Assembly (NCBI GenBank): GCA_013044035.1
Contig: JABEVE010000055.1
Span: 1-64,000 of the forward strand
Source of the DNA: Burkholderiales bacterium
Lineage (GTDB): Bacteria > Pseudomonadota > Gammaproteobacteria > Burkholderiales > Burkholderiaceae_C
DNA: 64,000 nt
Direction: 5' to 3'
Both the position numbers and the translations under genes were made by a program. The notes under the pieces were generated by a model, which saw only the letters and a program-made list of their open reading frames with translations, was not told the DNA's origin and did not search any database. Positions 28,832 to 57,333 of this stretch are shown here, one piece after another. Numbering within the stretch: position 1 is the stretch's first letter; every line of letters starts with the position of its first letter.

Positions 28832-28902
28832 CGTCGGTCTGGAGATCTGGGTTGGGTGGACAGCATAAACGCAGCGCGTGGCGTTGCGCTTGGTTGAGAA
28901 TT

Positions 28903-28936: not shown

Positions 28937-28968
28937 TCAGAGAATGGGCGGCCTGATCTTCGGTCGCA

Positions 28969-29211
28969 ATGCGCAACAAGAACAACAACAACGAATCGTT
29001 CGGCGCGGCGCTGCGGGCGCTGCGCAAAACGGCCGGCAAGTCCCAGGAAACCCTGGCCTGGGACGCGGGGCTCGACCGCACCTACATCAGCATGCTCGAA
29101 CTCGGGCAGCGCTCGCCGACGCTGGACACCATGCTCGCGCTATGCGCAGCCCTGGGCGTCTCATTCCTCGAACTGGCCACCGAGATCGATCGGCGGCTCG
29201 CGGCCCCTTGA
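28969..29211 (+). CDS. XRE-family HTH regulator
   Basis: 'FGAALRALRKTAGKSQETLAWDAGLDRTYISMLELGQRSPTLDTML'; stop overlaps rci start. Confidence 0.85.
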   Translation: MRNKNNNNESFGAALRALRKTAGKSQETLAWDAGLDRTYISMLELGQRSPTLDTMLALCAALGVSFLELATEIDRRLAAP

Positions 29212-29922
29212 TGAGCATACCCTCCAGCCAGGCGCGGGCCATGCCGGAGCCGCCGTCGCCGCCCACGCTGGCCGCCGCGGATCGCCTCGAGGCGCCGCCT
29301 CGCAACGGCCCCTTGCCGCCCGACGCGCGCATGCGCGATGTGCTCGAAGAATACCGAGCGCGAGTGTCCATCCTGAAAAAAGGCTACGCGCAGGAGCGCT
29401 ACCGCATCGAGCAGCTCGGCCGCAGCCTGCTCGGTGACCTTGAGGTGCGCTCCGTCACATCGGTCGACATCGCGACCTACCGCGACCGTCGCCTGCAGGA
29501 AGTCAACGCGAAGACCGGCAAGACGATCTCGGCGGCGACGGTGCGGCTCGAGATGTCGCTGCTGTCCGCCATCTTCGACGTCGCCCGAATCGAGTGGGGC
29601 GTCGCCGGCGACAACCCGGTGGCCAAGGTCCGCAAACCAAAGACGCCGCCGGGCCGCGACCGGCGGCTGACGGCCCGCGAAGAACGCCTGATCCTGCGCT
29701 ACTGCAACGAGTACCGCAACGCCGAGTTGCTGTCGATCGTCATCGTCGCCCTAGAGACGGCCATGCGCCAGGGCGAGATCCTGGGCCTGCGTTGGGAGCA
29801 CATCAACACGCGATCGCGCATTGCGCACCTGCCCGAGACGAAGAACGGCAGCAAGCGCGACGTGCCGCTCTCGGTCAAAGCCCGCGACGCCATCACCCGC
29901 ATGGGCGTCAAGGCCAGCGGGC
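29211..29922 (+). pseudogene. rci: Shufflon recombinase Rci, N-terminal part (interrupted by insertion)
   Basis: 'VDIATYRDRRLQEVNAKTGKTISAATVRLEMSLLSAIFDVARIEWG...ALETAMRQGEILGLRWEHINTR..AHLPETKNGSKRDVPLS'; coding continues at 47578. Confidence 0.85.
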
Positions 29923-29960
29923 GAGGCGTTCTACTAAAGTGTTGCGCTTTGGCGCGCCAC
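29923..29960 (+). repeat. Left terminal inverted repeat
   Basis: GAGGCGTTCTACTAAAGTGTTGCGCTTTGGCGCGCCAC, 34/38 identical to the complement of 47540-47577. Confidence 0.9.
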
Positions 29961-29964
29961 GATA

Positions 29965-29994
29965 GACTCCCTGTTCAGTGATGAACGGGGAGTC
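29965..29994 (+). promoter_or_regulatory. Stem-loop directly upstream of the transposase start
   Basis: GACTCCCtGTTCA-gtga-TGAACgGGGAGTC, 13-bp stem with one G-U. Confidence 0.6.
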
Positions 29995-29999
29995 ATTGT

Positions 30000-31721
30000 T
30001 TGGAAAAGTACCGTCGCCTACCGTCGCCGGCGGATGGCATTGAATTTCATTTTTGCCGCAACGTGGCATGTGCCAACTTCGGCCAGCCTCCGTCGCCGGG
30101 GCCGAAGTGGGCCAAGTCCACCATCGCTGACACTTATCGGCTTTCCGGCGGCAAAAGTTCGACGATTGTCTTGATCTGCAAGCTCTGCGGCACCAGCGTT
30201 CCCGTCAAGAGCAATGCGGCGCTTGCCGAGGAACTGAATCGTCTGTGGTCCCCATTGACCGAGAAGTCGGTACACTGCCCGACCGTTGGTTGCCTCGGAG
30301 GATCAATTCGCCGACACGGCACAACGCAGGCCGGTCAAGCCCGTTACCGGTGCCTGTCCTGTGGCAAAACCTTCACGCTCCGCAAGCGCGTTCCGAGACG
30401 ATCGCGCCGACCAGGGCTGGACGCGCAGATCCTGACCCTGTTGACGAACAAGGTCCCCATGCGACGGATCTGCGAGGCCGCAGACGTCGGCCCGGCAGTG
30501 CTCTACAACCAGATCGATCGCTGTCACGAACTGGCGGTTCGCTTCGCCGCGCGTCACGAACGGAGGCTCCTGTCGCCCGAGGGGGCTCCGGCCCGGGTGT
30601 ACCTTGCGGTCGACCGGCAGGAGCACATCTTCAACTGGGGATCGAGCCTGGATCGGCGCAATGTCGTGCTGCGCACCGTCGCTTCCTCGGATAACAACAC
30701 CGGCTACGTCTTCGGCGCGCATCTCGACTTCGACCCCAACCTGGAACCCGAGACAGTTGAGCGCCAAGCCATCCTCGCCGGCGACTATGACCGACCGTAT
30801 CCGTTTCGCAAATTCGCCCGCGTCTGGCTGCAGCAGGAATACACAGATGCCTTCCACACGCTTCGTCGGCTGCGCAAACGGCAGCAAGGATCCGGCTCCA
30901 TGGTTGCCGACCTCGCACAGACATACCGAGACGCTGACTCCACTGACGCCCAAGATGCAGTCGACCAACGGCTTCCCTCCCTGGGCATGCAGGTGCACTC
31001 CGAGTACACGCTGTACGCCCATTTCTGGTTCCTCGCTCGACTGCTGCGGCACGTCGAGAAGATTCGGGTCTTTATGGACCTAGACACGGGCATGCGGGCG
31101 GCGTGCCTTGGCGCCTTCGCGCAGCGTGTCCAGGCGCGCACGATCGATGTCTTCTTCGTGCGGATCCGCAAGGATCTGACCGTCTCCCAGAAGAAGACGC
31201 TGAAGTCCGCTGCGGAACACCGGCTGCGCGTCAAGATGCAGGAGATGGGATCCGCTGACCGCGGCGCAGCGATCCAGGCCGTCATGGAGGATCGGCTCCG
31301 CGAGATGATCGCCGTCGGTGATCAAGGCGACCGTTGGTTGCTCCACCCGTTTCCCGATATGAGCGAACCTGAGAAGGCCGTCTGCCATCTCACGCCGCGC
31401 GACGGCTACGACACGGGCCATCTGGCCGCGCTCTATCGCAAGGCCAGCCTGCATTCGATCGACAAGTTCTTCATGCAGGTACGGCGGCGCCTGAGCGTAC
31501 TGGAGCGACCGGTTCGATCTGCCAATGCCGCTCGGGTGTGGCACGGCTATTCCGCATACAACCCGGCCGTCGCCGCCCGGCTTCTAGATCTGTTTCGTAT
31601 CGTGCACAACTATGTCCTGATCGGCCAGGACGGCCGCACTCCGGCGATGCGTCTGGGGCTGGCCTCAGGCCCCTATCGGGTTGAAGAACTCCTCTCCCTG
31701 CGCGACGTCGGGAAGGAGTGA
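30000..31721 (+). CDS. IS1/IS1595-like transposase with N-terminal zinc ribbon (573 aa)
   Basis: 'CPTVGCLGGSIRRHGTTQAGQARYRCLSCGKTFTLRKR' and acidic-residue motifs 'YLAVDRQEH', 'IRVFMDLDTGMRAACLGAF'; adjacent to left IR; TTG start. Confidence 0.65.
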   Translation: MEKYRRLPSPADGIEFHFCRNVACANFGQPPSPGPKWAKSTIADTYRLSGGKSSTIVLICKLCGTSVPVKSNAALAEELNRLWSPLTEKSVHCPTVGCLGGSIRRHGTTQAGQARYRCLSCGKTFTLRKRVPRRSRRPGLDAQILTLLTNKVPMRRICEAADVGPAVLYNQIDRCHELAVRFAARHERRLLSPEGAPARVYLAVDRQEHIFNWGSSLDRRNVVLRTVASSDNNTGYVFGAHLDFDPNLEPETVERQAILAGDYDRPYPFRKFARVWLQQEYTDAFHTLRRLRKRQQGSGSMVADLAQTYRDADSTDAQDAVDQRLPSLGMQVHSEYTLYAHFWFLARLLRHVEKIRVFMDLDTGMRAACLGAFAQRVQARTIDVFFVRIRKDLTVSQKKTLKSAAEHRLRVKMQEMGSADRGAAIQAVMEDRLREMIAVGDQGDRWLLHPFPDMSEPEKAVCHLTPRDGYDTGHLAALYRKASLHSIDKFFMQVRRRLSVLERPVRSANAARVWHGYSAYNPAVAARLLDLFRIVHNYVLIGQDGRTPAMRLGLASGPYRVEELLSLRDVGKE

Positions 31722-32578
31722 GTCTTGAGCAATTCGGTTTCGAGCAGGTGCAGCTTGGGATGCAAGTGGGCAATGTTTGGGCCCAGTGCCATGGATTCCA
31801 GGAAGTAGGGAACTAGACACTCTCGCACGTCGGCGCGCCAGCGCCAATGGCCCTTGATATTCTCCATGCCGAACTCGAGAGCGATCACCTCCTGCTGTTC
31901 GGTCGACAGATCGGCGCGCGGTACGAGCGTCACGCGCACGCGCTGATTCCACTGCATATCGTCCTGCGCTGCCTTCGGCGCAGGATTTTCCGTAGGCACC
32001 GTCTTGCGGATTCGCTGCAGCACGAGATCGATGAAGTCATCGTACTTGCTGTCGAAGGCGCGTACGTGCCAGCGGGCTCCGGCGAACACCAGGGTGTGCG
32101 GCCATACCTCGCGGTCCGTCGCCTGGCGCGTCTGCAGCGACTGGTAGACGATCCGCAGACCGGTTCCCTGGCGCAATGCGCGCGTCACGTCCTTGAGGGT
32201 GGACGGGTCTACACGGCCGATCGGCGCAGGAATCAACTCAACGTGGACACCATCACCGACGGTCGGTGCGACTGCGGACTCGAAGCCGTCCGCGCCTTCG
32301 GCCGCCTCCCGCGACACGCGCAGCAGGGCAAGGTACTCCTCAGCGGTGCCGGAGGTCAGTCTCGGCCGGAATTTCCTGCCCGGACGGTACGAGCGATGCG
32401 ACAAGTCGTAATCCAGATTGCCGGGGAACTGTTTGCGGTACAGGCCGAAGTCTTTCGTCACATGGTTTTCGGTGACCCCAAAGGCCTTAGCCACGCGCGG
32501 TCGGTCGATCGCCCCTTCCCAGAAGACAACCGACTCGATGAAGCGAAGGCGTTGGCGCTGCGAGAATGCAACTTCCAT
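31673..32578 (-). CDS. WYL-domain transcriptional regulator (BrxR/CapW-like)
   Basis: wHTH 'RQRLRFIESVVFWEGAIDRPRVAKAFGVTENHVTKDFGLYRKQFPGNLDYD' and WYL-like 'WPHTLVFAGARWHVRAFDSKYDDFIDLVLQRI'. Confidence 0.8.
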   Translation of the reverse strand: MEVAFSQRQRLRFIESVVFWEGAIDRPRVAKAFGVTENHVTKDFGLYRKQFPGNLDYDLSHRSYRPGRKFRPRLTSGTAEEYLALLRVSREAAEGADGFESAVAPTVGDGVHVELIPAPIGRVDPSTLKDVTRALRQGTGLRIVYQSLQTRQATDREVWPHTLVFAGARWHVRAFDSKYDDFIDLVLQRIRKTVPTENPAPKAAQDDMQWNQRVRVTLVPRADLSTEQQEVIALEFGMENIKGHWRWRADVRECLVPYFLESMALGPNIAHLHPKLHLLETELLKTHSFPTSRRERSSSTR

Positions 32579-32696
32579 GTTCATTCCTATGTCATACATA
32601 AAAAGCAGTCGTCACTATATTTCATTGCCTCAAATTTTTCAAAGGTAGCATGCAAAAGCATTGACACTGCTACGCCGAGTGGACGAGAATGCATAC

Positions 32697-35600
32697 ATGC
32701 TCGCCGCACACAGCACATCCGGTCTACAGTCCTGGCTCGACGCCCTCGGCTACGCCGAGGCTGGGCTGGATCTCTTGACCTCGGTTGACGCTGTCTCGGC
32801 AGAAGAGGCCTTCGCTCCGGAGCTGCTGGCATTGCTCGATGGCAGCATTGATCCAGCAATCGGTGCGGTCGCTGCCGTTGACCACACCCCGACCGTTTGC
32901 TTCGTGGCGCTGGACCCTAATGCCCCCGGTCAGGCAGACCGCATCGCGGCAATCCGGCGGGCGGTGTGGAACCAGAATCTGGTCTGTCTGGTACTCGCGG
33001 TCACTCCCGATACGGCCTATCCGTATCCGGTGGCTCCCGATCTCGCGGCAGCCCAACCCATCCAGCGTGGCGACACCAATGCGGCCACGGCCTACGGCTA
33101 CAGGGGGCTTGCTGCCGGTGCCCTGCTTGAAGAACACCCGGACTGGTTCGATCGCAAGCACCGCGTGGATCGACGGTTACTGCGCAACCTCGACGAAGCC
33201 GTCGTTGCCCTCAAGAGACCCGACGAGAGCAAACTGCGCGCACAGTACCTGCTTGGACAGAGTCTGTTTATCGCCTATCTCGAGCACCGTGGAATCGCAG
33301 GAGGGGACTATCGTCGCAAGCACTGCGTGGATACGCTCTTGGCGCTTGTTCGTGCCCGCAATCGTGAGCGGCTGGAGCATTACATCGCCTGTCTGAAGGA
33401 GAGCTTCAACGGCGACATCCTTGCGCCAGAGATCGTGGGTCTAGCGGGGTGGTCGGATCTGGACGACAACGGCCTTGCAGTGATCGCAGATTTCCTGTCG
33501 CACACAGATATATCGACCGGACAGCAATCCCTGTGGGCCTACGATTTCCGCTACATCCCGGTGGAGTTGATTTCGGGGGTCTACGAGACATTCCTGGCCG
33601 ATGACAAACGCCTCGCAGGCGCCTACTACACGCCGCGCAACCTGGCAGCGTTTGCGGTGGATCAGGCGTTCGAGCACAGCGTTGACATCACCCGCGAGGT
33701 CGTTTACGACGGAGCCTGCGGGTCGGGCATCCTGTTGGTGACGGCCTTCCGACGCATGGTGCACGCGGCCGACGCGGCCGCCGGAACGCCACTGACGTTC
33801 GCCCAACGCTGCCAGTTGCTCCTGGGGCATATCCGCGGAGGCGACATCAATCCCGCGGCGTGCATGGTCGCCGCGTTCAGTCTGTACCTCTCGCTGCTGG
33901 AAAACCTCCAACCCGCCGATCTGACACGGCTCGGCAACGGTGACCACGAGGCCAGATTACCGCACTTGCGCGATGCCATTCTGTGGAGTGGCGCCAGGCA
34001 AGGCGACTTCTTCGGCAATGACAGTGGCCCTCAGGACGCCACCATTTTCCTATCGAATCCACCATGGAAAGAGCCCAGGGGCGAGGACCAAGGGTTGGGT
34101 TACGAATCCTGGGCCGAGGACCCCGCACGGCGTTGGTTTCTTCCGCACCGGCAGATCGCCGCGGCGTTTGCGCATCGCGCCCTGGATGTCGTTCCTGACG
34201 GTGGCCGAGTCTGCCTGATCCTGCCTGCAAAGCTGTTCCTCTCGGCGACCAGTCAGAAGTTCGTTCTGGAATTCCTCTCTCGCTGCAATCTCAAGCGCGT
34301 GGTGTGTCTGGCCGATGTTCGACACATGCTGTTCTCCGAGGCGGTCCATCCCTGCGTGATCGTCCTGGCTGAGCGGATGAGCGATGAGCGGCAGGATGCG
34401 GGCAATCCGATGTTTGACTACTGGGTCCCGAAGGCGGACGTGAGCGTTGCCTATGGGCGATTGACCATCCACGGTTGCGATCGGCATCAACTGCCGGCTG
34501 GGCTGGTGGCGCGGAATAACCAGCTCCTGCGGACCTATCTTTGGGGTGGACCGCACGACCAAGCGTTGCTGCTGCGGTTGCGCGCGCTCGGGAGGTTGGA
34601 CGATATGGTGAGTCGAGGTCGCCGTTCGGAATCCAAGCCGCGCTGGATCGAGGGCAAGGGCTTTCACCATCTCGATCGAAACCGCGACGGCAAGGACGCT
34701 GGATTCCTGCGGCAGGTTCCTTTCCTCGACGCGAAACGCACACCGAGTTTGCCGGTTCTCGATCCACTGCTCCTCCAGGATTTGCCGCAGAAGTTCGCCG
34801 TCGTCGCGTCGTATGGCGCGCACAACGGCGAATTGTTCCGGGGCCCGCGCGTCATGATCAACGATGGCGTGGATTACGCGACCTACGAGGCGAAGGCGGT
34901 CTTTTCTCAGCGGACGTTCTCGTTCCAGAGTTCGATCGGTGCGTTCGCCGGTCCCGATACCGACGCGGATCTGCTTCGCTTTCTTGCCGTCTATCTGCGC
35001 TCGTCGCTTGCCCGATACCTGCTGCTGGTCAGTTCGTATGCGCTGACGGTCGAGCGCCAGCGGGTGTCGATGACCGAGTTGAAGGATCTGCCCTTCGTTC
35101 CGCCCGAGCAACATCCGGATCCCGCACGCGCCAAGCGGATCGTCGGGCAGATTGCCGCCAAATCCCGCGCGATGGAGAATATGGACGGACTGCAATCGGC
35201 CGAGATCTATGACGCGGAGAAGTCGGCGTTCGACCGATTGATCGCCGAATACTTCGGACTGAACTCGATCGATCAGGATGCCGTCGGCGAGGCCGTTCGG
35301 TACTTCATCCCGAGCATTCAACCCAGATGGGGTGATCTCGGGGAAAGCCCGTTGTTGCGCACGCTGAGCAGCGATGACCTTTTCGCCTATGCGTCAACGC
35401 TCAGCCGCGAACTCCGGGATCTCAGTGTCGGACTTGGCGGGGACGGCGCCGTTCGGGCTGAGGTGGTCGCGGAAAGCACCTCGCGCCGCGGCGCCATTGG
35501 CATTTGCAGGATCTTGCGCTCGGCGGGAGACGGCAGTACGCGGCGCGACGATGACCAGGTTGCGTCAGCCATCCGATGGCTGCGCCAGCAGCGGCTGATG

Positions 35601-35777
35601 CCTCTCGCTGCTGGCGAGAGCTTTCAGCTCGCCTCAGATTTTCTGTTTTTCTGCAACAACGAGATGTTCCTCGTCAAACCGCTGGTCGCGCGCTTCTGGC
35701 TGCGGGGACAGGCTCGGCGGGATGCGCTACGTGTGGTGCGCGCCGCTCGTCAATATGCGGGGAAAGGCACCGCATGA
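32697..35777 (+). CDS. N6-adenine DNA methyltransferase (large, type IIG/PglX-like architecture)
   Basis: Motif I 'VVYDGACGSGILLVTAF', motif IV 'LSNPPWKEP'; alternative TTG start at 32661. Confidence 0.8.
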   Translation: MLAAHSTSGLQSWLDALGYAEAGLDLLTSVDAVSAEEAFAPELLALLDGSIDPAIGAVAAVDHTPTVCFVALDPNAPGQADRIAAIRRAVWNQNLVCLVLAVTPDTAYPYPVAPDLAAAQPIQRGDTNAATAYGYRGLAAGALLEEHPDWFDRKHRVDRRLLRNLDEAVVALKRPDESKLRAQYLLGQSLFIAYLEHRGIAGGDYRRKHCVDTLLALVRARNRERLEHYIACLKESFNGDILAPEIVGLAGWSDLDDNGLAVIADFLSHTDISTGQQSLWAYDFRYIPVELISGVYETFLADDKRLAGAYYTPRNLAAFAVDQAFEHSVDITREVVYDGACGSGILLVTAFRRMVHAADAAAGTPLTFAQRCQLLLGHIRGGDINPAACMVAAFSLYLSLLENLQPADLTRLGNGDHEARLPHLRDAILWSGARQGDFFGNDSGPQDATIFLSNPPWKEPRGEDQGLGYESWAEDPARRWFLPHRQIAAAFAHRALDVVPDGGRVCLILPAKLFLSATSQKFVLEFLSRCNLKRVVCLADVRHMLFSEAVHPCVIVLAERMSDERQDAGNPMFDYWVPKADVSVAYGRLTIHGCDRHQLPAGLVARNNQLLRTYLWGGPHDQALLLRLRALGRLDDMVSRGRRSESKPRWIEGKGFHHLDRNRDGKDAGFLRQVPFLDAKRTPSLPVLDPLLLQDLPQKFAVVASYGAHNGELFRGPRVMINDGVDYATYEAKAVFSQRTFSFQSSIGAFAGPDTDADLLRFLAVYLRSSLARYLLLVSSYALTVERQRVSMTELKDLPFVPPEQHPDPARAKRIVGQIAAKSRAMENMDGLQSAEIYDAEKSAFDRLIAEYFGLNSIDQDAVGEAVRYFIPSIQPRWGDLGESPLLRTLSSDDLFAYASTLSRELRDLSVGLGGDGAVRAEVVAESTSRRGAIGICRILRSAGDGSTRRDDDQVASAIRWLRQQRLMPLAAGESFQLASDFLFFCNNEMFLVKPLVARFWLRGQARRDALRVVRAARQYAGKGTA

Positions 35778-36487
35778 CGCAACAGAAGGACCATCTAACC
35801 GAGGATTGGCTCAAGGGTTTTCCAGACACGGATCTCGGGGACGCGGTACGGCTCATGCAGGCGACATGGCAGCGGTTGAGGGCGGATTTTCCAGATGCCT
35901 GTGATCCCAACCTTTCCGAGCCCGAAATCACCGCAACCTTTTGCGATCATCTGTTCCCAGACGGCGAAAAAGCCGGTCTGAATGGCACCTTTCTTTACGA
36001 AGTGCGCAGGGCAAAGACCCATCCGGAAACCGGAAAACGCATTCAGCCGATTCGCACCGATATTGAATATCGGGACACAGCGATCACGTTCCCATCCGGA
36101 AGACGTCTGGCAGTGATCTTCGAGTTCAAGAAGCTCAAGAACAACGATACGAGTCGGACTGGATATGTCGGGAAAAAGGGGATGCAGCGCTTCCTGACCG
36201 GAGACTACAAGGACCACGCCGAGTATGTCGCGTTCATGGTCGGTCTGGTCCATGACGAGGCACAAGCAGCGATTGCAGCAATCGAGGCCCGTCTCAAGCG
36301 GGCTGGGACGCGCGATCTACTACACATCCGACCCGACGATTCCGGGCGGCATGTACTCAAGCCTTCGGCATGGTTTCCGGAATCCGTGCACTTCGATACA
36401 GTGCATTCGCGTACAACGCAGATCAACGCGGCGGAGCACAGCAAATTTTCCGATCTGGTGCTCTGCCATTTTTTTTTGGAGCATTAA
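35774..36487 (+). CDS. Putative PD-(D/E)xK-like nuclease partner protein
   Basis: 'IRTDIEYRDTAITFPSGRRLAVIFEFKKLKNND' resembles D-x(n)-ExK; ATGA overlap with MTase. Confidence 0.5.
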   Translation: MTQQKDHLTEDWLKGFPDTDLGDAVRLMQATWQRLRADFPDACDPNLSEPEITATFCDHLFPDGEKAGLNGTFLYEVRRAKTHPETGKRIQPIRTDIEYRDTAITFPSGRRLAVIFEFKKLKNNDTSRTGYVGKKGMQRFLTGDYKDHAEYVAFMVGLVHDEAQAAIAAIEARLKRAGTRDLLHIRPDDSGRHVLKPSAWFPESVHFDTVHSRTTQINAAEHSKFSDLVLCHFFLEH

Positions 36488-36664
36488 CGTCGGCTTTGAT
36501 GACAGTGGTTCTTGCTGCGCACGGTGCGAATGCCTGATAGCGCACTCATGGCTGGCGGGACAATCTGACGGAACCAGCGCACGTCGAAGTAACTGCCACC
36601 TGCTGAGCAGCCACGTGGGGGCGACGGCGCTGAATCAAACCTACGCACAGGCGGGTAGGTCAAG

Positions 36665-37378
36665 TCAACCCAACATCCCAAGCATTCCCGCCCGAACGAC
36701 CGCAGCGGTCTTATTCGGCGCGTGCAGTTTGATGATTGAATTGGCAATGTGGAAATTCGCAGTGCGCTCGGAGATGTTGAGGATGTCGGCGATCTCCGAT
36801 GCCGTTTTGCCATCCGCAGCCCATCGCAGCACCTCGATCTCCCTGTCGGTGAGCAGGACTGTCGCTGCGGGCATCAGTTTGGCCGTGAGGATGCGCGACA
36901 TCCCGAGATGCGCCATCTGCGTCAGCCAAGCCAGCTGGACCTCCTTGTCGCGCAGTTCGATCTCGGAGATCGGCTCCCCCGATCGCGACACGGACAACAT
37001 GCCCATCGTGCTGTTCACGTCCCGGCTGGATTGTGCCCAGCCAAAGCACAAGCCGAACGAGCGGGCTTCTTCCCAGAGATCGCGATTCGAGGCAAAGAAC
37101 GCGTCGGACCAAACGACGGGTTGCAGGGAACGCGTGCCATGGCGGACAGTCGGGTCGACTGCAACGTAGCCCTTCTCCTTGTACCGTTCCTCCCATGCAC
37201 GCGGGTAATTGGTCAGCAACACCACCTTGGGCCGGGAGACCGGTAGCGGCATGCGCAGCCCATAGGAGCAGTGGTCGAATCCGAGGGATTGGACGATCGA
37301 AACGACGACCTCGAACAACTGCACGTCACACGTGATCGTCTGCAACGCATGGAGTTGGTGTTCCTGCCATCCCTTCAT
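36665..37378 (-). CDS. LuxR-family autoinducer-binding regulator
   Basis: Autoinducer-domain features 'LGFDHCSYGLRMPLP' and C-terminal 'LTDREIEVLRWAADGKTASEIADILNISERTANFHIANSIIKL'. Confidence 0.9.
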   Translation of the reverse strand: MKGWQEHQLHALQTITCDVQLFEVVVSIVQSLGFDHCSYGLRMPLPVSRPKVVLLTNYPRAWEERYKEKGYVAVDPTVRHGTRSLQPVVWSDAFFASNRDLWEEARSFGLCFGWAQSSRDVNSTMGMLSVSRSGEPISEIELRDKEVQLAWLTQMAHLGMSRILTAKLMPAATVLLTDREIEVLRWAADGKTASEIADILNISERTANFHIANSIIKLHAPNKTAAVVRAGMLGMLG

Positions 37379-37410
37379 GGTCTTCTCCTGCAGACAGGCC
37401 TTGTGACGGA

Positions 37411-37426
37411 CTGTCATATTTGACAC
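37411..37426. promoter_or_regulatory. Putative lux box 1: CTGTCATATTTGACAC
   Basis: TGTCA-N4-TGACA palindrome, ends 62 bp upstream of 37489 ATG. Confidence 0.65.
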
Positions 37427-37488
37427 TAGCCCTGCACTGCGTCGTCCTGTAGCGTGTCCCTTTCGAACTTCGTCGAGGACGACAACCC

Positions 37489-37923
37489 ATGACGCACGCC
37501 ACTGTCACTCATGGGCCAGCGCTGGCCCGAGCACCCATGATGACCCTTTCAGATGACGGCTTGGTCCGTCTCACTCTGGAAAGTTTAAGGGCGAACCCAT
37601 TCATCCATCTGCTGTCCGGGTTGGATGAACCCGTTGCCTCCCCCCTTCAAGAAGGCGCGAGCCTGGATCAGATCTCCGGTTACACCGAATGGGTGAGCAC
37701 TACACCTCCAGTGATCACCCTGGGCTGGGACTGGTGGTTGGATGTTTCCGCGACGCCGATCATCTATATCCGCATTGGCTCCCCCCGGAGCAATGTGATG
37801 CTCATGGATGCGCAGCACCGCGACCTGGGCAGACGCAAAACCGATGCTGCGCTGGGGACGCTGATCTCAACATTGTCCTGGCAAGCTGCGGTCGCGAAGC
37901 ATATTGGTTCACGCTACGCATGA
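37489..37923 (+). CDS. DUF4902/RsaM-like quorum-sensing modulator
   Basis: 144 aa ORF between luxR and luxI genes, matching the Burkholderia-type LuxR-RsaM-LuxI arrangement. Confidence 0.6.
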   Translation: MTHATVTHGPALARAPMMTLSDDGLVRLTLESLRANPFIHLLSGLDEPVASPLQEGASLDQISGYTEWVSTTPPVITLGWDWWLDVSATPIIYIRIGSPRSNVMLMDAQHRDLGRRKTDAALGTLISTLSWQAAVAKHIGSRYA

Positions 37924-37927
37924 TGGC

Positions 37928-37943
37928 CTGTCAGTTCTGACAG
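37928..37943. promoter_or_regulatory. Putative lux box 2: CTGTCAGTTCTGACAG
   Basis: Perfect 7-bp-arm palindrome, ends 63 bp upstream of luxI ATG (38007). Confidence 0.75.
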
Positions 37944-38006
37944 TTACGCGCCTGCTGTGGCGCCGGTTCAATCCGTCTCCAAGTGTTCGAGCCAATTGGA
38001 GGTGGT

Positions 38007-38585
38007 ATGCAGATCGTGTCAGGATCCACAGCACAACTTCATCCAGGCTTGCACGCAAGCGTTGGACGCTATCGCCACCAAGTATTTGTCGAGAAGCTCG
38101 GCTGGGACGTGCCCTCGCAAGAGGACATTGAAGCCGATCAGTTCGATCGCCCGGACACTATCTATATCGTTGGCCGGGATGATCAGGGGCATGTCTGTGG
38201 CTGCGCTCGGCTACTGCCCACCACCCGACCCTACCTGCTGGGCGAGGTTTTCCCTCAACTGTTGAATGGCCTTGCGCCACCTGCATCCCCGGATGTCTGG
38301 GAGTTGTCGCGCTTCGCGGCCACGGATTTCAACAGCCAAGCCACGTCAGCGCTGGGGAGGATGTCCTCGGAAGCGGCGATTGCATTGATGCGTGCGTCCA
38401 TTGTCTGCGCTGCGGAGCAAGGGGCAAAGCGGTTGATCATGGTGACCAATCTTGGGGTGGAAAGATTGTTGCGAAGGGCGGGTTTTGAAGCGCATCGCGC
38501 AGGGCCGCCTATGGTTATCGATGGGCATCCCATTTTTGCGTGTTGGGTTTTCTGGCCTGAAAATGCAGCGCCGATCAATTGTTGA
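38007..38585 (+). CDS. LuxI-family acyl-homoserine-lactone synthase
   Basis: 'RYRHQVFVEKLGWDVP...EADQFDRPDTIYIVGRD..GHVCGCARLLPTTRPYLLGEVFP...VWELSRFAA'. Confidence 0.93.
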   Translation: MQIVSGSTAQLHPGLHASVGRYRHQVFVEKLGWDVPSQEDIEADQFDRPDTIYIVGRDDQGHVCGCARLLPTTRPYLLGEVFPQLLNGLAPPASPDVWELSRFAATDFNSQATSALGRMSSEAAIALMRASIVCAAEQGAKRLIMVTNLGVERLLRRAGFEAHRAGPPMVIDGHPIFACWVFWPENAAPINC

Positions 38586-38790
38586 TTTGCAATTAATGGA
38601 TGAATAATAACAATTAATTTCCACCTCCAGTTAACTAATGGCCCTGGCAATATTGAAACTTCTTCGTGCAAATTGCTGGACTGCCAAGAAGTTCATCGCT
38701 TTTTACATGCCAGTGCCAGGCAAAGAATAAACTGATTCGTTATCCCTCGGATTAAACATTATTTAACACCATAGTCAGGGAGTTTAGTAA

Positions 38791-40077
38791 ATGAAATCAA
38801 CCGAATATATCGAGAGTCTTCCGACCTCAACTCACATTTCGCGGCTTGGTGCGCATTGGATTGGGTCGGTAAATCTTGAGAGGATTGTCAACTACGCTGG
38901 AACACCTGTATTTATCTATAGCGCGGCGCAGTTAACGAAGAATGCCCGCCGAGTGAAAGCTGCCGCAGGTGAGGCTGGTCTTGGGGATCGACTTTCTATT
39001 TTCGTCCCGTTTTTCCCCAATGCCAACCCGCACATTCTGAGGCCGCTGCAAGATGAGGGCGTTGGTATTCTTCTCCAGATGCCGAACGAGCACGAGATTG
39101 TTACAAAGTTTGGCTATTCAAACTTCATCGTTTCGCCCGGGCACGTATCGAACGAAGAGATCAGTTTTTGGGGACAGCATGGATACCCAACCTTCTTGGC
39201 GAGTCTCGACGAAATCACCTTTGCTCTGCAGCAAAAGGCTAAGACAATTAGTGTCCGGATCGACAGCCTCGGCTCTGACAAGCCCGGCATTAAGGTCGAC
39301 CAATTAGCCGACCTTGCACAAATGCTTAAGGCCCACGACCGTACACTTGAATGTTTCGAGGTGTACTGCGGCAGCGGCAATTCGCTTGATGACATGATTG
39401 ATATAGCACGCCAGATCTTCCGTATGTTTCTTGATCATTTTTCAACTGCGAAATCGATCAACTTTGCAGGCGGCCATGGCTTCAAATATGAAGGGTGGGA
39501 TGATCAGATAAAGCATTTTGACTGGCTTACCTACTTCAAAGCCATCCGAGTGCTTGCGGCCGAGATGGGAATTCCAGATTACGTTAATTTTTTGATCGAG
39601 CCAGCTCGGGATATTCTGGCAGACACTGGCGTACTCTTAGTTGGTGTAAAACGCGATATCGTCAAACATTCGAACGGCAGCATTGTCGTCACCGACGGTT
39701 CGCGCATGCTGATGCCTTCGGCGCAGCTACGCAACCGATCACACAATACCGTTTTTCTCGATGATACGTTTCGAGAAATTTTCCACGGCGAAGACGCTGT
39801 AACATGCAAGATTCGCGGTCGAAGTCTTCTCAGAAATGATTATATATTGCCGGGCGAGGCTGTAGCCCCTAATTCTGTCGTGGCTGGTGGTTATCTCCTG
39901 ATCTTTGATGTTGGCGCCTATTGTGCAACGCAGCACATGGAATTTTTGAACGTTCCGCCAGCCGGCGAGGTCGTTGTGAGCATTGATAGCTCAATGCACC
40001 TTGTGACCAAGCCCGGCCACCCGTTGGACAAATGGCGGAATTTGTTGCCGGAACACCAGCCCATTCCAGTCGGATGA
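38791..40077 (+). CDS. Fold-type III PLP decarboxylase-like protein (LysA/ODC family), apparently lacking the PLP lysine
   Basis: '[23 protein letters not shown]', '[11 protein letters not shown]', '[13 protein letters not shown]', C-terminal 'LLIFDVGAY'. Confidence 0.75.
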
Positions 40078-40090
40078 GGAAGTACGCGGT

Positions 40091-40756
40091 ATGGGCGAAG
40101 GCCAGGAGAAAGCAATGGATTTGGTGGGACTCAACCCGGATGTCGCATTCGAGAACGACGAAGATGGCGTCAACGGTGAGGATCCGTTCGCGCTCTTTGG
40201 GGAATGGCTTGCACTTGCACACATCAAGGAAATTAACGATGCCAATGCTATGGCGATCGCCACCTCGGATACGGTAGGGTTACCGAATGTCCGGATGGTA
40301 TTGTTGAAAGGGTTTGATTCTAATGGCTTCGTGTTCTTTACGAATACTGAATCCCAAAAAGGAATCGAGCTTTTGGCGAACATGCAGGCCGCTGCGGTTC
40401 TACATTGGAAGTCACTTCGGCGTCAGGTGCGGCTCCGCGGGCAAGTAATGCTAGTGACGGAGGATGAGGCCGACGCCTATTTTGCCTCGCGCCCACGGGC
40501 GAGCAGGATAGGCGCCTGGGCTAGTCGCCAGTCACGTCCGCTTGCGGGCAGGCATGAGTTGCGGAAGGCTGTCGCCGTTCAGGCGGTCAAGTATGCGGTT
40601 GGTGCCATCCCGCGACCGCGCCACTGGACAGGCTTCCGTATCGTCCCAACCTATATGGAATTTTGGATGGATAAGCCTTATCGGCTACATGACCGTCTTG
40701 TCTTCACGCGAAATTCACAGGGTACTCCGTGGGGTAGTCAAAGGTACTATCCATAA
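40091..40756 (+). CDS. Pyridoxamine 5'-phosphate oxidase family protein (PdxH-like)
   Basis: '[43 protein letters not shown]' and '[21 protein letters not shown]'. Confidence 0.9.
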
Positions 40757-41009
40757 CTTGTTCTAATTCGACTTCACTTGGTGAGATTATGCTGGCATAT
40801 TTTGTTGGTGAGCGATGATTTTCCATCAGCCAAACTCGCGTACTTCAGTTTGAATCGGGAGGGTCAAACGGGTGTGTGGCAGTGGTTATAGACGCCGTGG
40901 CGTAAGCTGGAGGCTACCATAAGCCTCAGTGTGAAAGACGTTAAACTCCGATGGCATCGGGTTAATGCCAAATTTGCAGCAGGAAAACGGCACAGGAAGA
41001 TGATTTAAG

Positions 41010-41906
41010 ATGACTAAATTAAAAATGGCAGATCACCTTTTCGGATACATCCTGCTCGCGCTTGCAATGATGACGGTTGGTTCAACGGTCATTGCCTCGA
41101 AGATAATTGCTGGTAATATTCCACCTTTTGCAGCTGTCGCCATGCGATTTGCACTTGCCCTACCGATCTTGTTGGTGATTGTTGTCATGTCGCACGTGCG
41201 AATGCCAAACCTCAGGCGGCGGGATTGGGGACTTTTAGCTCTGCAAGCTGCCGCTGGGAGCGTAGGGTATACGGTCTTGTTAATTTCAGGACTAAATTTT
41301 CTTCCAGCCGCGACCGCTGGTGTTGTGATTGGAACGCTTCCCGCCGTTTCTGCGTTGTTCGCAGTGCTCGTGTTGCGCGAGCGATCGGACTATAGGATTG
41401 CGGCGAGCGTCACGCTGGCCACAATAGGCGTGATGTCCGTTGCATGGACCGGCCGTGAACATGGCTCGTTGGTGGGGATGGTCCTTGTGTTGGGGGCGGT
41501 GATTTGTGAGAGTGCCTTCATCCTTCTGAACAAGCGAATGGATGTGCCGTTGCCGCCGCTACTGCAGTCGACGGTAATGACTGCGTTCGGGCTTCTGTTC
41601 TCACTTCCCTTCGTTGCATTTGGTTGGGATGGGGTCAAGCTGTCCATATCAGCCTTGGCGGCTATTGCTTGGTACGCGCTTATCCCGACCGTCGGGGGCT
41701 TCCTCCTTTGGTACGCGGGCGCAGCGCGCGTCAGCGGAGGCGAAGCTGCAACGTTCACTGCGATTGCGCCACTTACCGCCGTAGCCCTTGCTGCAGTGTT
41801 TCTAGGGGAGTCCATAGGACTGTCCCAGTTATTGGGTATGGTCACTGTGATCGCGGCAATTCTTGTGCTAAGTCTTCCAGTCAGGAGAAGGAGTGGAGCT
41901 AAATGA
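41010..41906 (+). CDS. EamA/DMT-family transporter
   Basis: 298 aa, about ten hydrophobic segments, 'GGEAATFTAIAPLTAVALAAVFLGESIGLSQLLG'. Confidence 0.85.
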   Translation: MTKLKMADHLFGYILLALAMMTVGSTVIASKIIAGNIPPFAAVAMRFALALPILLVIVVMSHVRMPNLRRRDWGLLALQAAAGSVGYTVLLISGLNFLPAATAGVVIGTLPAVSALFAVLVLRERSDYRIAASVTLATIGVMSVAWTGREHGSLVGMVLVLGAVICESAFILLNKRMDVPLPPLLQSTVMTAFGLLFSLPFVAFGWDGVKLSISALAAIAWYALIPTVGGFLLWYAGAARVSGGEAATFTAIAPLTAVALAAVFLGESIGLSQLLGMVTVIAAILVLSLPVRRRSGAK

Positions 41907-42577
41907 CGCCAATTTTTCAGCACGATACTGCCCTTCGTGCCGATTTTTCGACATTGAGGGTGGGTATCGTCCTGCTCACTAACGTTGATCGACTCGACCC
42001 CTCAAAGCTCGATGCCGCTCAGCATTTGCGCACTGCGTTTGGCCGACTCGCGGTCGGGTCTGAAAGTGAGATGCCACAGATTCGGGCCTGGCGCGGGGCG
42101 TATTCGCAGATGGGTCTGAAGCCTACGCAATACCGATGCGCCGCTGAGTCGCTTCTGAGGCGCTTGCGGACGGAAGGAAACCTTCCAACGGTAAACCCTG
42201 TTGTCGATTTCTGCAACGCGGTGTCGGCGGCTTGGGCGATTCCTCTCGCTGTCTTTGACCTCGACCAAGTCGTGGGGACACTGACCGTCCGCTACGCCAT
42301 TGGCGATGAGAGGTATGTGACTTTTGCCGGCACTGAAGAGCATCCCGAGCCGGGCGAAGTGATCTTTGCTGATTCTGCTGGCTGGGCCCATGCGCGGCGT
42401 TGGGTCCATAGGCAAAGCGGACGGTCGGCCGTTTCCAGCATGACAAAACGTGCGCTTCTTGTTACTGAGGCGCTTCATGAGAAGGCTGTCGATGATCTTG
42501 GCGCGATGACAGCGGAACTGGCTTCGGCTTTCACACTGGCTGGATGTGACGTTCAGGAAAACCCGCCGTCCAGCTGA
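41903..42577 (+). CDS. Free-standing B3/B4 (PheRS beta-type editing) domain protein
   Basis: 'AWRGAYSQMGLKPTQYRCAAESLLRRL...LPTVNPVVDFCNAVSAAWAIPLAVFDLD'; ATGA overlap with transporter. Confidence 0.8.
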   Translation: MTPIFQHDTALRADFSTLRVGIVLLTNVDRLDPSKLDAAQHLRTAFGRLAVGSESEMPQIRAWRGAYSQMGLKPTQYRCAAESLLRRLRTEGNLPTVNPVVDFCNAVSAAWAIPLAVFDLDQVVGTLTVRYAIGDERYVTFAGTEEHPEPGEVIFADSAGWAHARRWVHRQSGRSAVSSMTKRALLVTEALHEKAVDDLGAMTAELASAFTLAGCDVQENPPSS

Positions 42578-42612
42578 GGGTCTTTGAGACAAGCAGGGGA
42601 GCAAAAGGCAAT

Positions 42613-43299
42613 ATGGATAGGAAAGTTGATTTGGAAGTGGCTCTATCGAGTATCCGCAACGCTATCCAAGAGACTGCGGTTGCGTGCGGACGTCGCCCAG
42701 AGGATGTGACGCTGGTCGCTGCCTCGAAGACGGTTGAGCCGGATAGGCTGCAATCAGCAATTGATCTTGGCCAGCGGGTCTTCGGCGAGAACAGGCTGGA
42801 GGAAGCTCGGTCGAAATGGCCTGACCTACTCCAGGCCAATCCTGGGATCAAGCTCCACATGATCGGACCACTTCAGTCGAAGAAGGCGCGGGACGCCGTG
42901 GCTCTTTTTGACGTCATTCAGTCAGTCGACCGTTTGAGCCTCGCTGCGGCTATCGCGAAGGAGCGCGATAGACAGGGGCGTTCGCCTGCAATCTGTATTC
43001 AAGTGAACACAAGCTATGAGCCACAGAAGAGCGGTGTCCTACCTGAGCAAGCCGACGGCTTGATCTCAGAATGTCGGGACCAGTTGGGCCTTCATGTCGT
43101 AGGCCTAATGTGTATTCCTCCAGCCGAAGGTGAACCGGTTGATGATTTTCGGAAACTAGCAAGCATCGCCCAACAGAACGGGCTCAGTGTCCTGTCGATG
43201 GGTATGAGCCAAGACTTCGCTCTGGCGATTTCCCATGGTGCGACTCATGTTCGTGTTGGCAGTGCGATTTTCGGCGCTCGCAAGCCGCTTTCCATATGA
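42613..43299 (+). CDS. YggS/PLPBP-family PLP-binding protein
   Basis: 'VTLVAASKTVEPDRLQSAIDLGQRVFGENRLEEA', 'LHMIGPLQSKK', 'LSMGMSQDFALAISHGATHVRVGSAIFG'. Confidence 0.92.
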   Translation: MDRKVDLEVALSSIRNAIQETAVACGRRPEDVTLVAASKTVEPDRLQSAIDLGQRVFGENRLEEARSKWPDLLQANPGIKLHMIGPLQSKKARDAVALFDVIQSVDRLSLAAAIAKERDRQGRSPAICIQVNTSYEPQKSGVLPEQADGLISECRDQLGLHVVGLMCIPPAEGEPVDDFRKLASIAQQNGLSVLSMGMSQDFALAISHGATHVRVGSAIFGARKPLSI

Positions 43300-45449
43300 A
43301 ATATCCCGCTCCGCGACCAAGCTATAGCGCAGCGGATCCGATGTTCGCCCCACTATTCACACCCCTCCAGATTGGGCCAGTTACGATCCGCAATCGGTTC
43401 TATCAAGTTCCCCACTGCAACGGAATGAACAGAGTGCATCCCAGCGCAATGGCACAGATGCGAGGCATCAAGGCTGAGGGTGGTTGGGGGGCTGTCTGCA
43501 CCGAGCAGTGTGATGTGCATTACTCAGGATGTCATCCGCGCGAGCTCAGGCTTTGGGACCAGCACGACCTTCCGATCTTGGCGCGTGCCGTGGACGAGAT
43601 CCATAAGCATGGCGCGCTTGCCGGGATCGAACTGGCGCACAACGGATTTCATGTCCATAACCTTGAGACCCGCGCCATTCCTATGGCGCCGTCGCTGACG
43701 CCGACTCGAAGCAATGCACCGGTAATGGCACGCGAGATGGATCTACAGGACATTCGCAACGTCAGGCATTGGCACCGCCTTGCGGCAATAAATGCAAAGC
43801 GCGCAGGCTTTGATATTGTCTATATCTATGCAGGTCACGATATGACCTTGCCGGCGCATTTTTTGTCGCGGCGCCATAACCGTCGCACGGACTGCTATGG
43901 CGGAAGTCTTGAAAATCGCGTTCGGCTGTTAAGAGAGCTTGTCGAGGATGCGAAGGACGCAGTTGGAGATCGCTGCGCTATTGCGCTTAGGTTTGGCGTG
44001 GACGAGTTAATCGGGTCAGAAGGGTTGAGTTGCGTAGGTGAGGGGCGCGACGTCGTCCAAATGCTGGCGCATTTACCCGATCTATGGGATGTCAACATCA
44101 GTTCCTTTGAGAACGACGGGCAGTCATCGCGTTTCAGCGAAGAGGGGTTTCAAGAGGAATATATTCGGTTCGTGAAAAAGGTAACTGGCAAGCCCGTTGT
44201 TGGTGTCGGGCGCTATACTTCGCCAGATCGGATGCTCTGGCTTATTTCCACCGGGGTACTTGATCTGATTGGTGCGGCGAGACCTTCGATCGCGGATCCC
44301 TTCCTGCCCGAAAAGATTCGCACCGGCGCTTACGACGACATACGGGAATGCATCGGCTGCAATATTTGCATTGCGTCCGATAAGTTGAGCGTACCGTTGC
44401 GCTGCACCCAAAACCCGACAATTGGAGAAGAATGGCGGCGCGGCTGGCATCCAGAGCGGATCGCTGCGAAAGATACAGGCGACCGGGTCCTCATCGTGGG
44501 TGGCGGGCCAGCTGGGCTTGAGGCTGCGGTATGGCTAGGTCGGCGTGGCTATGAGACGACATTGATTGATCGCTCGCCCGAGTTTGGAGGGCGCGTGCGC
44601 CGTGAGGCGAGGCTTCCCGGACTACGCGCTTGGCAACGGGTGGTGGACTGGCGGCTTGAGCAACTAAAGAAAGACCGACATGTCACACTACTTCCAAACA
44701 ATGATGTGACGGCTGGAATCATTCTGGAGGCTGATTTCACCCTGATTGCACTTGCAACAGGCGCAGAGTGGCGCAGCGATGGGATTGGGCGAAGCCTCAC
44801 GCAACCGCTTCGTGGCGTTGAGTTGACTGCTATCTTCACCCCCGAAGACATCCTAGCTGGACGACTTCCTGAGGGGCGCGTTGTCCTGTTTGACGACGAT
44901 CACTACTATATGGGCGGGGTGATCGCTGAGTACTTGGTGGAGCGCGGCTGTGATGTGACCTTTGTCACACCAGACAGTTTGGTGTCTTCGTTCACAACGA
45001 ATACTGCCGAGCAGCCCAGAATCCAGAGACGCATGCTCGAAAAATGCTCGGCCGTACATGTTTCAACCCAATTGATAGAGGTCAGGGCGGGCGAGGCCGA
45101 CCTCGCGTGCGTTTTTACTGGGCGTCCGCGCACAATCATGGCTGACGCGATAGTGCTTGTAACATCGCAAGTGCCGTGCGACGACCTATTCTTTGATCTT
45201 CTCGCACAGGCGGCAATGGGGCCGCGCGTGGTCAGAATTGGCGACTGCTATGCCCCAGGGACCATTGCGGCAGCGGTTTATTCGGGACATCTCTTCGCGC
45301 GGACACTCGATAACCGCCTGACTGACAACCCGCCGTTTCGGCGTGAAAACACTCAACCAGATTGGGACCAGAGATTCCCTGAAGATATTGGCGTCTTTCG
45401 CGGATGCGACCATAATCATCCGCTCGAACGGAACGAATTGGGGCAATGA
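43296..45449 (+). CDS. TMADH-like NADH:flavin oxidoreductase/FAD protein with 4Fe-4S motif
   Basis: OYE-like barrel '[20 protein letters not shown]', 'ECIGCNICI', '[22 protein letters not shown]'. Confidence 0.88.
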
Positions 45450-45450
45450 A

Positions 45451-46497
45451 ATGCTCGATTTGAAACGTACTCTCAATCGCTTGGCAAGCGGTGAGCGCTT
45501 CAGCAGGGAAGAGGCCCGTACAATTTTTGATTATATGATCTCTGGCGAGGCCACAGGACCGCAGATCGGCGCCCTTCTCATGGGTCTTAGACTGCGCGGT
45601 GAAACAATTGAAGAGATTGTTGGGGCCGTTCAGGCTATGCGCCCCAAGATGATTCGCGTTGATGCACCTGCAGGGGCGGTTGATATTGTTGGCACCGGGG
45701 GAGATGGCGTCGGAACCTTCAACATTTCGACCACGGCAGCCTTTATTGTGGCTGGCGCAGATGTGCGGGTTGCCAAGCATGGAAATCGTGCTGTGTCCTC
45801 GAAGTCGGGGGCAGCTGATGTCCTCGTCGCACTTGGCGTCGCGATCGACCAAACGCCAATAGGTGTGTCCCGCTGCATTCTGGAAGCCGGACTGGGCTTC
45901 ATGTTCGCCCCGGCGCACCATCCAGCGCTCAAAGCCGTCATGCCAGCAAGGATCGAACTGGCCATGCCGACAATTTTCAATCTGCTGGGACCGCTTGTCA
46001 ATCCTGCGGGCGTCACTCGCCACTTGGTTGGAGTCTACTCCATCGACTGGCTTGTGCCGATGGCGGAGGCGTTGCGTGACCTCGGGTCGGAGCGCTGCCT
46101 TGTAGTACATGGCGACGATGGTTTGGACGAGATTACGCTAACCGGTCCTACGCAGGTCGCCATGCTCGCTGGCGGCGAGATCCGGAGATTCGAGATTTCG
46201 CCTGAGGATGTGGGGCTTTCGCGAGCCCGACTGGCAGACCTTAAAGGTAGCGACAACGAGCACAACGCGGCCGCTCTGCGAGAGGTGCTGGGCGGAAAGC
46301 CCGGCGCCTATCGGGACGTAGCACTTTTCAACGCAGCTGCGGCGCTGATTGCAAGCGGGGTGGCGCAAGACTGGGAGGAGGCAATGACAACGGCGCGCAG
46401 CTCGCTTGACGAGGGCCGTGCACTCGCATGTCTCGAGCGGCTCGTTCGCGTCTCCAATGGATACCCCACTGCCGACAATGAGGTGGGACAAAGATGA
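45451..46497 (+). CDS. trpD: Anthranilate phosphoribosyltransferase
   Basis: '[48 protein letters not shown]', '[12 protein letters not shown]'. Confidence 0.95.
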
Positions 46498-47285
46498 GCA
46501 TCTTGCAGAAGATCAGGGAGAAGAAGATAGAGGAGATCATCGAGGCCAAACGTCTAAGACCTCGAGCCGCGCTCGAGGCCGCTGTTCGCGGGCAGACGCC
46601 GCCGCGAAACTTCACTAGGGCGATCGCCAACCACTATTTCGAAGGGTCTCTTGCATTGATTGCAGAGATGAAAAAGGCGAGCCCGTCGAAGGGCCTTTTG
46701 CGTAAGGATTTCGACGTCCGTCGGATCGCTCAATCCTACCGCGATGGCGGCGCAGCGTGCCTGTCGGTTCTGACCGACCGCACGTTCTTCCAAGGCAATC
46801 CCGAATTCGTCCAGATGGCCAAGGGCGAAGTGGATTTGCCCGTCCTGCGCAAGGACTTTCTTATCGACCCGTACCAGGTTGTTGAATCGCGTGCGATGCA
46901 TGCCGATTGCATTCTGATTATCCTTGCAATGGTCGATGAGGTTCTGGCCCATGAACTTGAGGCTGCAGCAATAGAACTTGGCTTGCACGTCCTGATCGAA
47001 ATTCACGATGAGCGAGAGCTTGCGCGGGCGATGGGCATGAAATCCCAGTTGATAGGAATCAACAACAGGGACCTCGCGACATTCGAGGCCGATCTGACTA
47101 CTTCAATTCGGCTTTTTGCGCTTTTTGAGCCAGGTCGGCTTGCGATAAGTGAGAGTGGGATTTCAGGCCCTTCCGACGTTCATCGGCTCGCAGATGCTGG
47201 CATTCACGCATTTCTCATCGGTGAGAGTTTGCTCAAAGTTGACAACATAGAAAAAATCACTAGAGAACTTCTTGTTCCACGCTGA
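46494..47285 (+). CDS. trpC: Indole-3-glycerol-phosphate synthase
   Basis: '[20 protein letters not shown]', '[24 protein letters not shown]', '[15 protein letters not shown]', 'SESGI'. Confidence 0.95.
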
Positions 47286-47539
47286 TGCGTCCAGGCAGCA
47301 TGACTTCGAGCACTAAATCCGTGGTCACCAGCAGTTCTGATTGCCGCTTTCGGATGAAACTTTTACGCGCGATTGATCCCGGACGAGCATCCCCCGTTTC
47401 CACCCTCCCGATTAAGGCCAAGCCCCAGACTCTCTGCGGCGCAGTCTTGAAGGAGGGAAGGTCGTGGATCCAGCGCCTGCGCTGGCCGAGCGCGTAGCCA
47501 GCGTGCCGCGTCGTTCGTGCTGCCGCCGGTGCGCTGGGT

Positions 47540-47577
47540 GTGGCGTGCTGAAGCGCAACACTTTAGTAGAATGCCTC
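47540..47577 (-). repeat. Right terminal inverted repeat
   Basis: Complement reads GAGGCATTCTACTAAAGTGTTGCGCTTCAGCACGCCAC. Confidence 0.9.
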
Positions 47578-48154
47578 GGCCAGCGGGCGGGTCTTCGCTT
47601 ACACCAACCATGGACTGAAGTCCTGTTGGCGGGCCATGCTGCTCAAGCTGGGGATCGAGAATCTTCACTTTCATGACCTGCGGCACGAGGCCGTCAGCCG
47701 ACTGTTCGAGCTGGGCAGCTTGGACATGATGGAGATTGCATCCATCAGCGGCCACAAGAGCCTGTCGATGCTCAAGCGATACACGCACCTGCGCGCGCAG
47801 CGCCTGGTGTCGAAACTGGAGGCCGGCCGCCACAAGGGGCGCCAGCACGTGCTGGGGCACCTGGTGCCTTATCCGGCCCTTGTCGAGCCCGTGGAGGACG
47901 CTGTGCGCGTGCGCGTGCTCGATTTCGACGACCTGGTGGTTTCGGCCGTGACGAGCGCCGGCGCGCTCGAGCTTGCGCAGGACAGGCTGTTGCGGCGGAT
48001 CTTGCAGCACATGCGCGAGTCGACGCCGATCCCGGCGCCGGACCAGTATCTGATCCCGGTCGACGAGGCGGCCGTCGTCTGGGTCGACCCCATGGCCAAC
48101 TGCACGCCGTCGGCGCCGACCACGGACGAAGCCGAAGCGCAGGCCGCCGCTTGA
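47578..48154 (+). pseudogene. rci: Shufflon recombinase Rci, C-terminal part
   Basis: 'HFHDLRHEAVSRLFELGSLDMMEIASISGHKSLSMLKRYTHLRAQRLVSKLEA' with Rci-like C-terminal extension. Confidence 0.85.
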
Positions 48155-53234: not shown

Positions 53235-53237
53235 TCC

Positions 53238-57326: not shown

Positions 57327-57333
57327 GGTGTCC

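Follow-up and report, generated by a model that had tools for sequence, protein, structure and literature searches.

A conserved LysA-fold protein family with phenylalanine at the Schiff-base lysine position, encoded beside B6 and tryptophan-pathway genes

Introduction

Textbooks recognise PLP enzymes by the lysine that forms the internal aldimine, and in enzymes of the LysA/ODC type the lysine that binds PLP lies in the motif (A/V)(L/V)KAN.NP.(I/V)L. Here we ask what a protein of this fold may do when that lysine is gone. The gene comes from a Burkholderiales bacterium (GCA_013044035.1, JABEVE010000055.1, positions 1 to 64,000 of the forward strand; "the window" denotes these 64,000 nucleotides), and we call its product PLPx. 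An initial annotation had proposed that the catalytic lysine was apparently lost and that the protein might be a pseudoenzyme, a carrier or a cofactor-repurposed enzyme. If a clade spread over several phyla has fixed Phe for Lys and otherwise preserved its PLP pocket, then either the fold has a new mode of B6 catalysis, or a site once built for the cofactor now serves another ligand.

PLPx belongs to the LysA/ODC fold

The open reading frame (Table 1) contains the strings that had been quoted from it, including FAGGHGF, which is its Gly-rich loop. PLPx matched NCBIfam TIGR01048 over two stretches (E value = 1.3e-20), its 73.3 bits being below the curated cut-off of 297.9, and had no Pfam match at an E value of 0.001. 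Among PDB sequences it matched 1knw (E value = 6.7e-8). A profile of the PLPx family matched 2yxx (E value = 9.4e-20) and BtrK (E value = 1.1e-18), with LysA structures and BtrK ranging from 1e-19 to 1e-17. The fold-III assignment was borne out by an AF2 model built from 23 sequences, which has the LysA fold (pLDDT 86, pTM 0.87) and whose top Foldseek match was 1ko0 (E value = 1.2e-23, TM 0.75); the 50 Foldseek matches listed were LysA, BtrK, DokD, SbnH and ODC. Both the TIM barrel and the C-terminal beta domain of the superfamily are present in PLPx according to AF2 and Foldseek. PLPx is thus a member of the LysA/ODC fold but shows no defining catalytic feature of LysA. An assignment as a true LysA was rejected, and the host genome encodes its own LysA elsewhere (510.7 bits).

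The Schiff-base lysine is replaced by phenylalanine

Next, we asked which residue of PLPx takes the place of the Schiff-base lysine. The profile alignment is free of gaps there, with BtrK FYLSLKANNNIH / QFYLSLKANNNIH standing over the family consensus elyvpffpnsnPh, and RYAVKANS / AVKANSS of the host LysA aligns to PFFPNAN of PLPx. Phe75 was invariant in 24 aligned homologues, and two plasmid homologues (from Ralstonia and Mesorhizobium) also have Phe, giving 26 sequences whose hosts include soil and marine bacteria, Streptomyces and one archaeon; most genome loci were fetched by patterns containing VPFFPN, which biases the set towards Phe75. Outside that bias stand the plasmid homologues, found by tblastn, and a relative found only by another pattern, YCATQHM, all with Phe. 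The latter lies on a Pacearchaeota MAG contig (L027, 3937-5172; 33 to 35% identical), and in its sequence LYVSYFANSNPH (SYFANSNPH) F-A-N aligns with K-A-N. These results indicate that the position of the Schiff-base lysine in PLPx is unambiguous and that Phe75 occupies it; from one sequence, the initial annotation had put Phe or Pro there. In the archaeal contig, a methyltransferase-like ORF lies downstream of the PLPx relative.

PLPx could still be a PLP enzyme if the role of the Schiff-base lysine had passed to Lys168, located where the helix that follows strand 4 begins; no other residue is a candidate for such a move. Lys168 is invariant in 24/24 sequences, even where the neighboring Lys164 is not, and none of the LysA proteins aligned here has a lysine at its position. 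However, the strand would differ from that of any known fold-III enzyme, and Lys168 could equally bind a carboxylate or a phosphate, so that we consider such a relocation very unlikely.

Phosphate contacts are kept and catalytic residues are lost

We placed the remaining pocket residues by profile alignment of the PLPx family with the LysA and BtrK structures, also at HxHxGS, where a MAFFT alignment of one LysA with the family slips by two columns. The residues that we take, from their roles in LysA/ODC, to contact the PLP phosphate and pyridine nitrogen (the GG loop, EPxR and GAY) are all kept and invariant: Gly227-Gly228, Glu270 and Arg273, and Tyr377. The counterpart of Glu270 contacts pyridine N1 in LysA/ODC. 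Ser195 is kept in at least 90% of the sequences. The His of HxHxGS, which stacks on the PLP ring in the fold-III superfamily, is replaced by an invariant Tyr192 (EVYCGSG in PLPx).

In LysA, the CESxD motif contributes a catalytic Cys from the partner subunit. The initial annotation was right that this motif is lost but misplaced it: VAPNSV lies downstream of the true equivalent, in which R-G-R-S-L-L-R-N-D (residues 342 to 350) aligns with A-G-P-L-C-E-S-G-D of 1knw. PLPx has Leu346 at the Cys position, where many relatives have Ile, and retains Asp350. Compared with LysA (1knw/1ko0, 2yxx), PLPx therefore has the same overall fold, length, Gly-rich loop and EPxR and GAY residues but lacks the Schiff-base Lys, the stacking His and the CESxD Cys, and its strand-4 loop is shortened. 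Residues invariant in the 24-sequence alignment and specific to the family are Lys168, His242, Trp245, His318, Gln381, His382, Asp413, Lys414 and Arg416.

The family is conserved, rare and patchily distributed

A recent pseudogene or a sequencing artefact might also lack the lysine, and one relative, the Aureimonas glaciei copy (L026, 9980-11240), indeed has a frameshift close to the equivalent of residue 304 in the PLPx of the window. However, the frame in the window is open, and the same substitution occurs in all 26 sequences. The mean column identity of the family was 60 to 65%, and comparison with the nearest relative (L006, 93% identical) gave a dN of 0.035, a dS of 0.146 and a dN/dS of 0.24 (simple NG86 estimate from this one pair), indicating that PLPx is under purifying selection. 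With Phe75 invariant as well, these figures, which come from sequence comparison, mark PLPx as a conserved functional clade and not a product of decay. The conserved family refutes the pseudogene reading, to which we give next to no credence.

Members were found in the Pseudomonadota, Actinomycetota and Acidobacteriota and on the one archaeal MAG contig. Random genome samples of the host's class (1/387) and phylum (1/399) held no member other than the host itself, so that the family is rare and patchy, and the viral contigs searched gave no match. Searching the open-access literature for the gene combination or for fold-III proteins that lack the lysine yielded nothing of relevance; in that literature we found no account of the family, and the biosynthetic cluster described below is apparently undescribed.

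PLPx accompanies PdxH, YggS and tryptophan-pathway genes

In its first genomic setting, PLPx occurs with PdxH, a B3/4 protein, YggS, an OYE-type flavoprotein, TrpD, TrpC and an exporter (Table 1) in Alpha- and Betaproteobacteria, Streptomyces and Kineosporia. We counted 17 complete clusters of this trp type (the window, Ralstonia L002, L006, L008 to L015, L017 to L020, Kineosporia L022 and Roseibium L024). PdxH and YggS, whose presence nearby had been noted as remarkable for the window, are kept in 17/17 of them across two phyla, a stronger linkage than one locus could reveal. A further cluster, in Aureimonas ureilytica (L007), is cut at the contig end, with TrpC, PLPx and PdxH visible. L016 had seemed to belong to the PdxH group as well; as no PdxH-like ORF of this locus bears that out, the assignment was rejected. 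The cluster PdxH and YggS retain their own signature residues, and the host has housekeeping copies of TrpD, TrpC, PdxH and YggS besides those of the cluster.

Table 1. Features of the window around PLPx and of the transposon that carries it
Feature	Position	Strand	Evidence or remark
Transposon (17.7 kb) with PLPx cluster	29913..47586	.	8-bp target duplication GCCAGCGG; 42-bp imperfect inverted repeats
Zinc-ribbon transposase-like ORF, transposon cargo	30000-31721		No Pfam match
WYL-domain protein, transposon cargo	31673-32599
N6-methylase/Eco57I-like protein, transposon cargo	32661-35777
LuxR-type regulator (autoinducer-binding domain and GerE)	36665..37426	-	Domain match
LuxI-type acyl-homoserine-lactone synthase	37983..38585	+	Domain/NCBIfam match
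PLPx, lysine-less LysA-like fold-III protein, 428 aa	38791..40077	+	NCBIfam, PDB-sequence, profile, alignment, AF2 and Foldseek matches
Codon of Phe75, at Schiff-base lysine position	39013..39015	+	Sequence and alignments
Codon of Lys168, sole other invariant Lys in barrel; family-specific	39292..39294	+	Alignments
Residues 343-350, GRSLLRND, equivalent of GPLCESGD (CESxD) region	39817..39840	+	Profile alignment
PdxH-type pyridoxamine/pyridoxine 5'-phosphate oxidase	40091..40756	+	NCBIfam; second copy in genome
EamA-family exporter	41010..41906	+	Domain match
Stand-alone B3/4 domain protein	41903..42577	+	Domain match
YggS-family PLP protein, lysine present	42613..43299	+	NCBIfam; second copy in genome
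OYE/dienoyl-reductase-type FMN/FAD/4Fe-4S oxidoreductase (CIGCNxC...CTQNP)	43296..45449	+	Domain/NCBIfam
TrpD, anthranilate phosphoribosyltransferase	45448..46494	+	Second copy
TrpC, indole-3-glycerol-phosphate synthase	46494..47285	+	Second copy

The usual streptomycete has no TrpF. PriA stands in for it in these organisms (PMC13055916). A TrpF-type gene nevertheless adjoins PLPx in all 12 Streptomyces clusters (the L009 copy was identified), and the host of the window encodes TrpF elsewhere in its genome. Since the Streptomyces clusters thus add what the window host already has, the cluster probably needs the full route from anthranilate to indole-3-glycerol phosphate (IGP). An amino-acid-like product is hinted at by the exporter, which is of the EamA type in the window and of the LysE/RhtB type in Roseibium, Aureimonas, Streptomyces and Kineosporia. 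B3/4 is an editing domain in PheRS, and we speculate that the stand-alone protein would fit self-protection against such a product. The adjacent LuxR and LuxI genes suggest that the window cluster is probably under quorum control.

A second clade occurs in a C-nucleoside-like setting

A second setting was found at six loci (L003, L021, L023, L025, L026 and L028), the hosts being Mesorhizobium, an Acidobacteriaceae MAG, a gamma MAG, Prosthecomicrobium and Aureimonas glaciei. Here the neighbors are varying subsets of a beta-RFAP-synthase-like protein, PurC, PurH and a divergent TrpF-like protein. The five intact PLPx sequences from this setting formed one group in a maximum-likelihood tree (100/100). 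The Prosthecomicrobium locus has PdxH and YggS; neither was seen in the fetched flanks of L003, L021, L023 and L025. The KxCG motif of TrpF holds its catalytic Cys, and in the TrpF-like isomerases of L028 (6489-7199), L025 (9013-9672) and L021 (1-477) this N-terminal motif is apparently missing (VLTQVYE / MLTQVYE), so that these proteins are probably not PRA isomerases. The second-clade loci resemble the formycin and pyrazofurin C-nucleoside clusters in their beta-RFAP-synthase-like, PurC and PurH homologues (PMC8724604). The passages found in that review link neither a LysA-type decarboxylase nor PdxH or YggS to the formycin and pyrazofurin pathways, and the first PLPx clade has trp genes instead.

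The two settings bear on whether the former PLP site now accommodates a phosphosugar, making PLPx a B6-free TIM-barrel enzyme that acts on a phosphoribosyl-type intermediate (PRA, CdRP or IGP in the trp-type cluster, or a C-ribosyl nucleotide in the C-nucleoside-like cluster). Both have PRPP-derived intermediates and TrpF or TrpF-like isomerases, the pocket residues that are kept are mostly phosphate contacts, and the residues of Schiff-base chemistry are all gone. However, the pyridine-N1 residue Glu270 is just as invariant, and PdxH and YggS accompany PLPx in every complete trp-type cluster and at one second-clade locus. We regard this conversion as possible, if doubtful.

A strictly non-catalytic role, in which PLPx would regulate or scaffold a cluster enzyme or carry a B6 vitamer, has a precedent in antizyme inhibitor, an animal pseudoenzyme of the ODC fold that binds antizyme, acts as its regulator and regulates ODC. 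Like antizyme inhibitor, PLPx is a fold-III protein without the catalysis of its parent, its fold kept and its catalytic residues lost, and the trp-type clusters always encode a second fold-III B6 protein, YggS. The likeness goes no further than this precedent: the PLPx clade is bacterial and archaeal, is tied to biosynthetic genes and keeps other residues. Moreover, its many invariant polar residues (Lys168, His242, His318, Gln381 and His382) seem to go beyond the needs of a scaffold, and the partner genes are mostly missing near the second clade. We consider this role improbable. With Asp413, Lys414 and Arg416 added, the same polar residues, together with the strict linkage to biosynthetic genes, make a repurposed active site more plausible to us than an inert pseudoenzyme. 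The loss of the lysine itself extends to the whole clade.

A B6 vitamer or adduct is the slightly favored candidate ligand

The best explanation, which we advance tentatively, is that PLPx is a repurposed enzyme of a specialised pathway and accommodates a phosphorylated ligand where PLP once bound, most likely a B6 vitamer or adduct. As we picture it, a dedicated branch from anthranilate through PRA and CdRP to IGP, made up of TrpD, a TrpF of the host or the cluster, and TrpC, would feed the pathway. PLPx would bind its phosphorylated ligand without an internal aldimine, and the likeliest single ligand would be PMP or a PLP-substrate aldimine, the latter either assembled away from the enzyme or handed over by the cluster YggS and PdxH. 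As reductive partner we propose the OYE-type Fe-S flavoenzyme, and the amino-acid-type exporter would serve the pathway.

Recruitment of the LysA fold to a specialised pathway has a parallel in BtrK, the L-glutamyl-[acyl-carrier-protein] decarboxylase of butirosin biosynthesis (2j66, 7ru7), which is among the best profile matches; however, BtrK retains the lysine of K-A-N, which PLPx lacks, and we recognised no gene for an acyl-carrier protein among those of the PLPx cluster. The working principle may be that of ColD and E1, fold-I PMP enzymes in which Lys is replaced by His and of which E1 works with an Fe-S/flavin reductase. The proposed common principle, offered as an analogy only, would be B6 chemistry without an internal aldimine; PLPx differs from both enzymes in having fold III and Phe in place of the Lys.

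A B6 vitamer or adduct is slightly favored over a phosphoribosyl substrate because Glu270 is invariant and PdxH and YggS are linked to PLPx; the phosphoribosyl substrate is almost as probable, its chemistry being found in both settings. An argument against a B6 ligand is that PLP normally owes much of its affinity to the Lys and the stacking His, both of which PLPx has lost, and Phe75 and Tyr192 could make the site narrower. The trp-type cluster may also have a use for B6 apart from PLPx, since the second-clade flanks mostly lack PdxH and YggS. In its boldest form, our explanation would make PLPx the first fold-III (LysA/ODC) enzyme to perform B6 chemistry with no lysine to form a Schiff base. 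It would act on an IGP-derived intermediate by means of PMP or of a PLP adduct made beforehand and supplied by the cluster PdxH and YggS, in a mobile and possibly quorum-controlled cluster common to Proteobacteria and Streptomyces; we judge this form rather unlikely. The occurrence of the cluster in culturable Streptomyces makes both the nature of the site (new B6 mode or converted site) and the cluster itself testable.

A transposon carries the window cluster

The cluster lies on a transposon (Table 1) with inverted repeats at 29919-29960 and 47540-47581, of which the LuxR/LuxI-PLPx cluster forms the remaining cargo. The insertion splits a tyrosine recombinase gene (28878-29981 and from 47636), whose flanks, when joined, give one open frame across the junction. 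Positions 36403-47581 of the window are 95% identical to L006 7603-18793, and outside this stretch similarity is limited to an inverted copy of the terminal repeat; L006 has the right repeat in common with the window transposon and a different flank. The G+C content falls from 65% in the window's outer parts to 55% in the cluster. Beside the transposon (53200-62600, minus strand) lie type IV pilus / type II secretion-like genes, including a T2SSE ATPase (54926-56914) and a secretin-like gene (58574-60283), which suggests that the transposon target was itself a mobile element.
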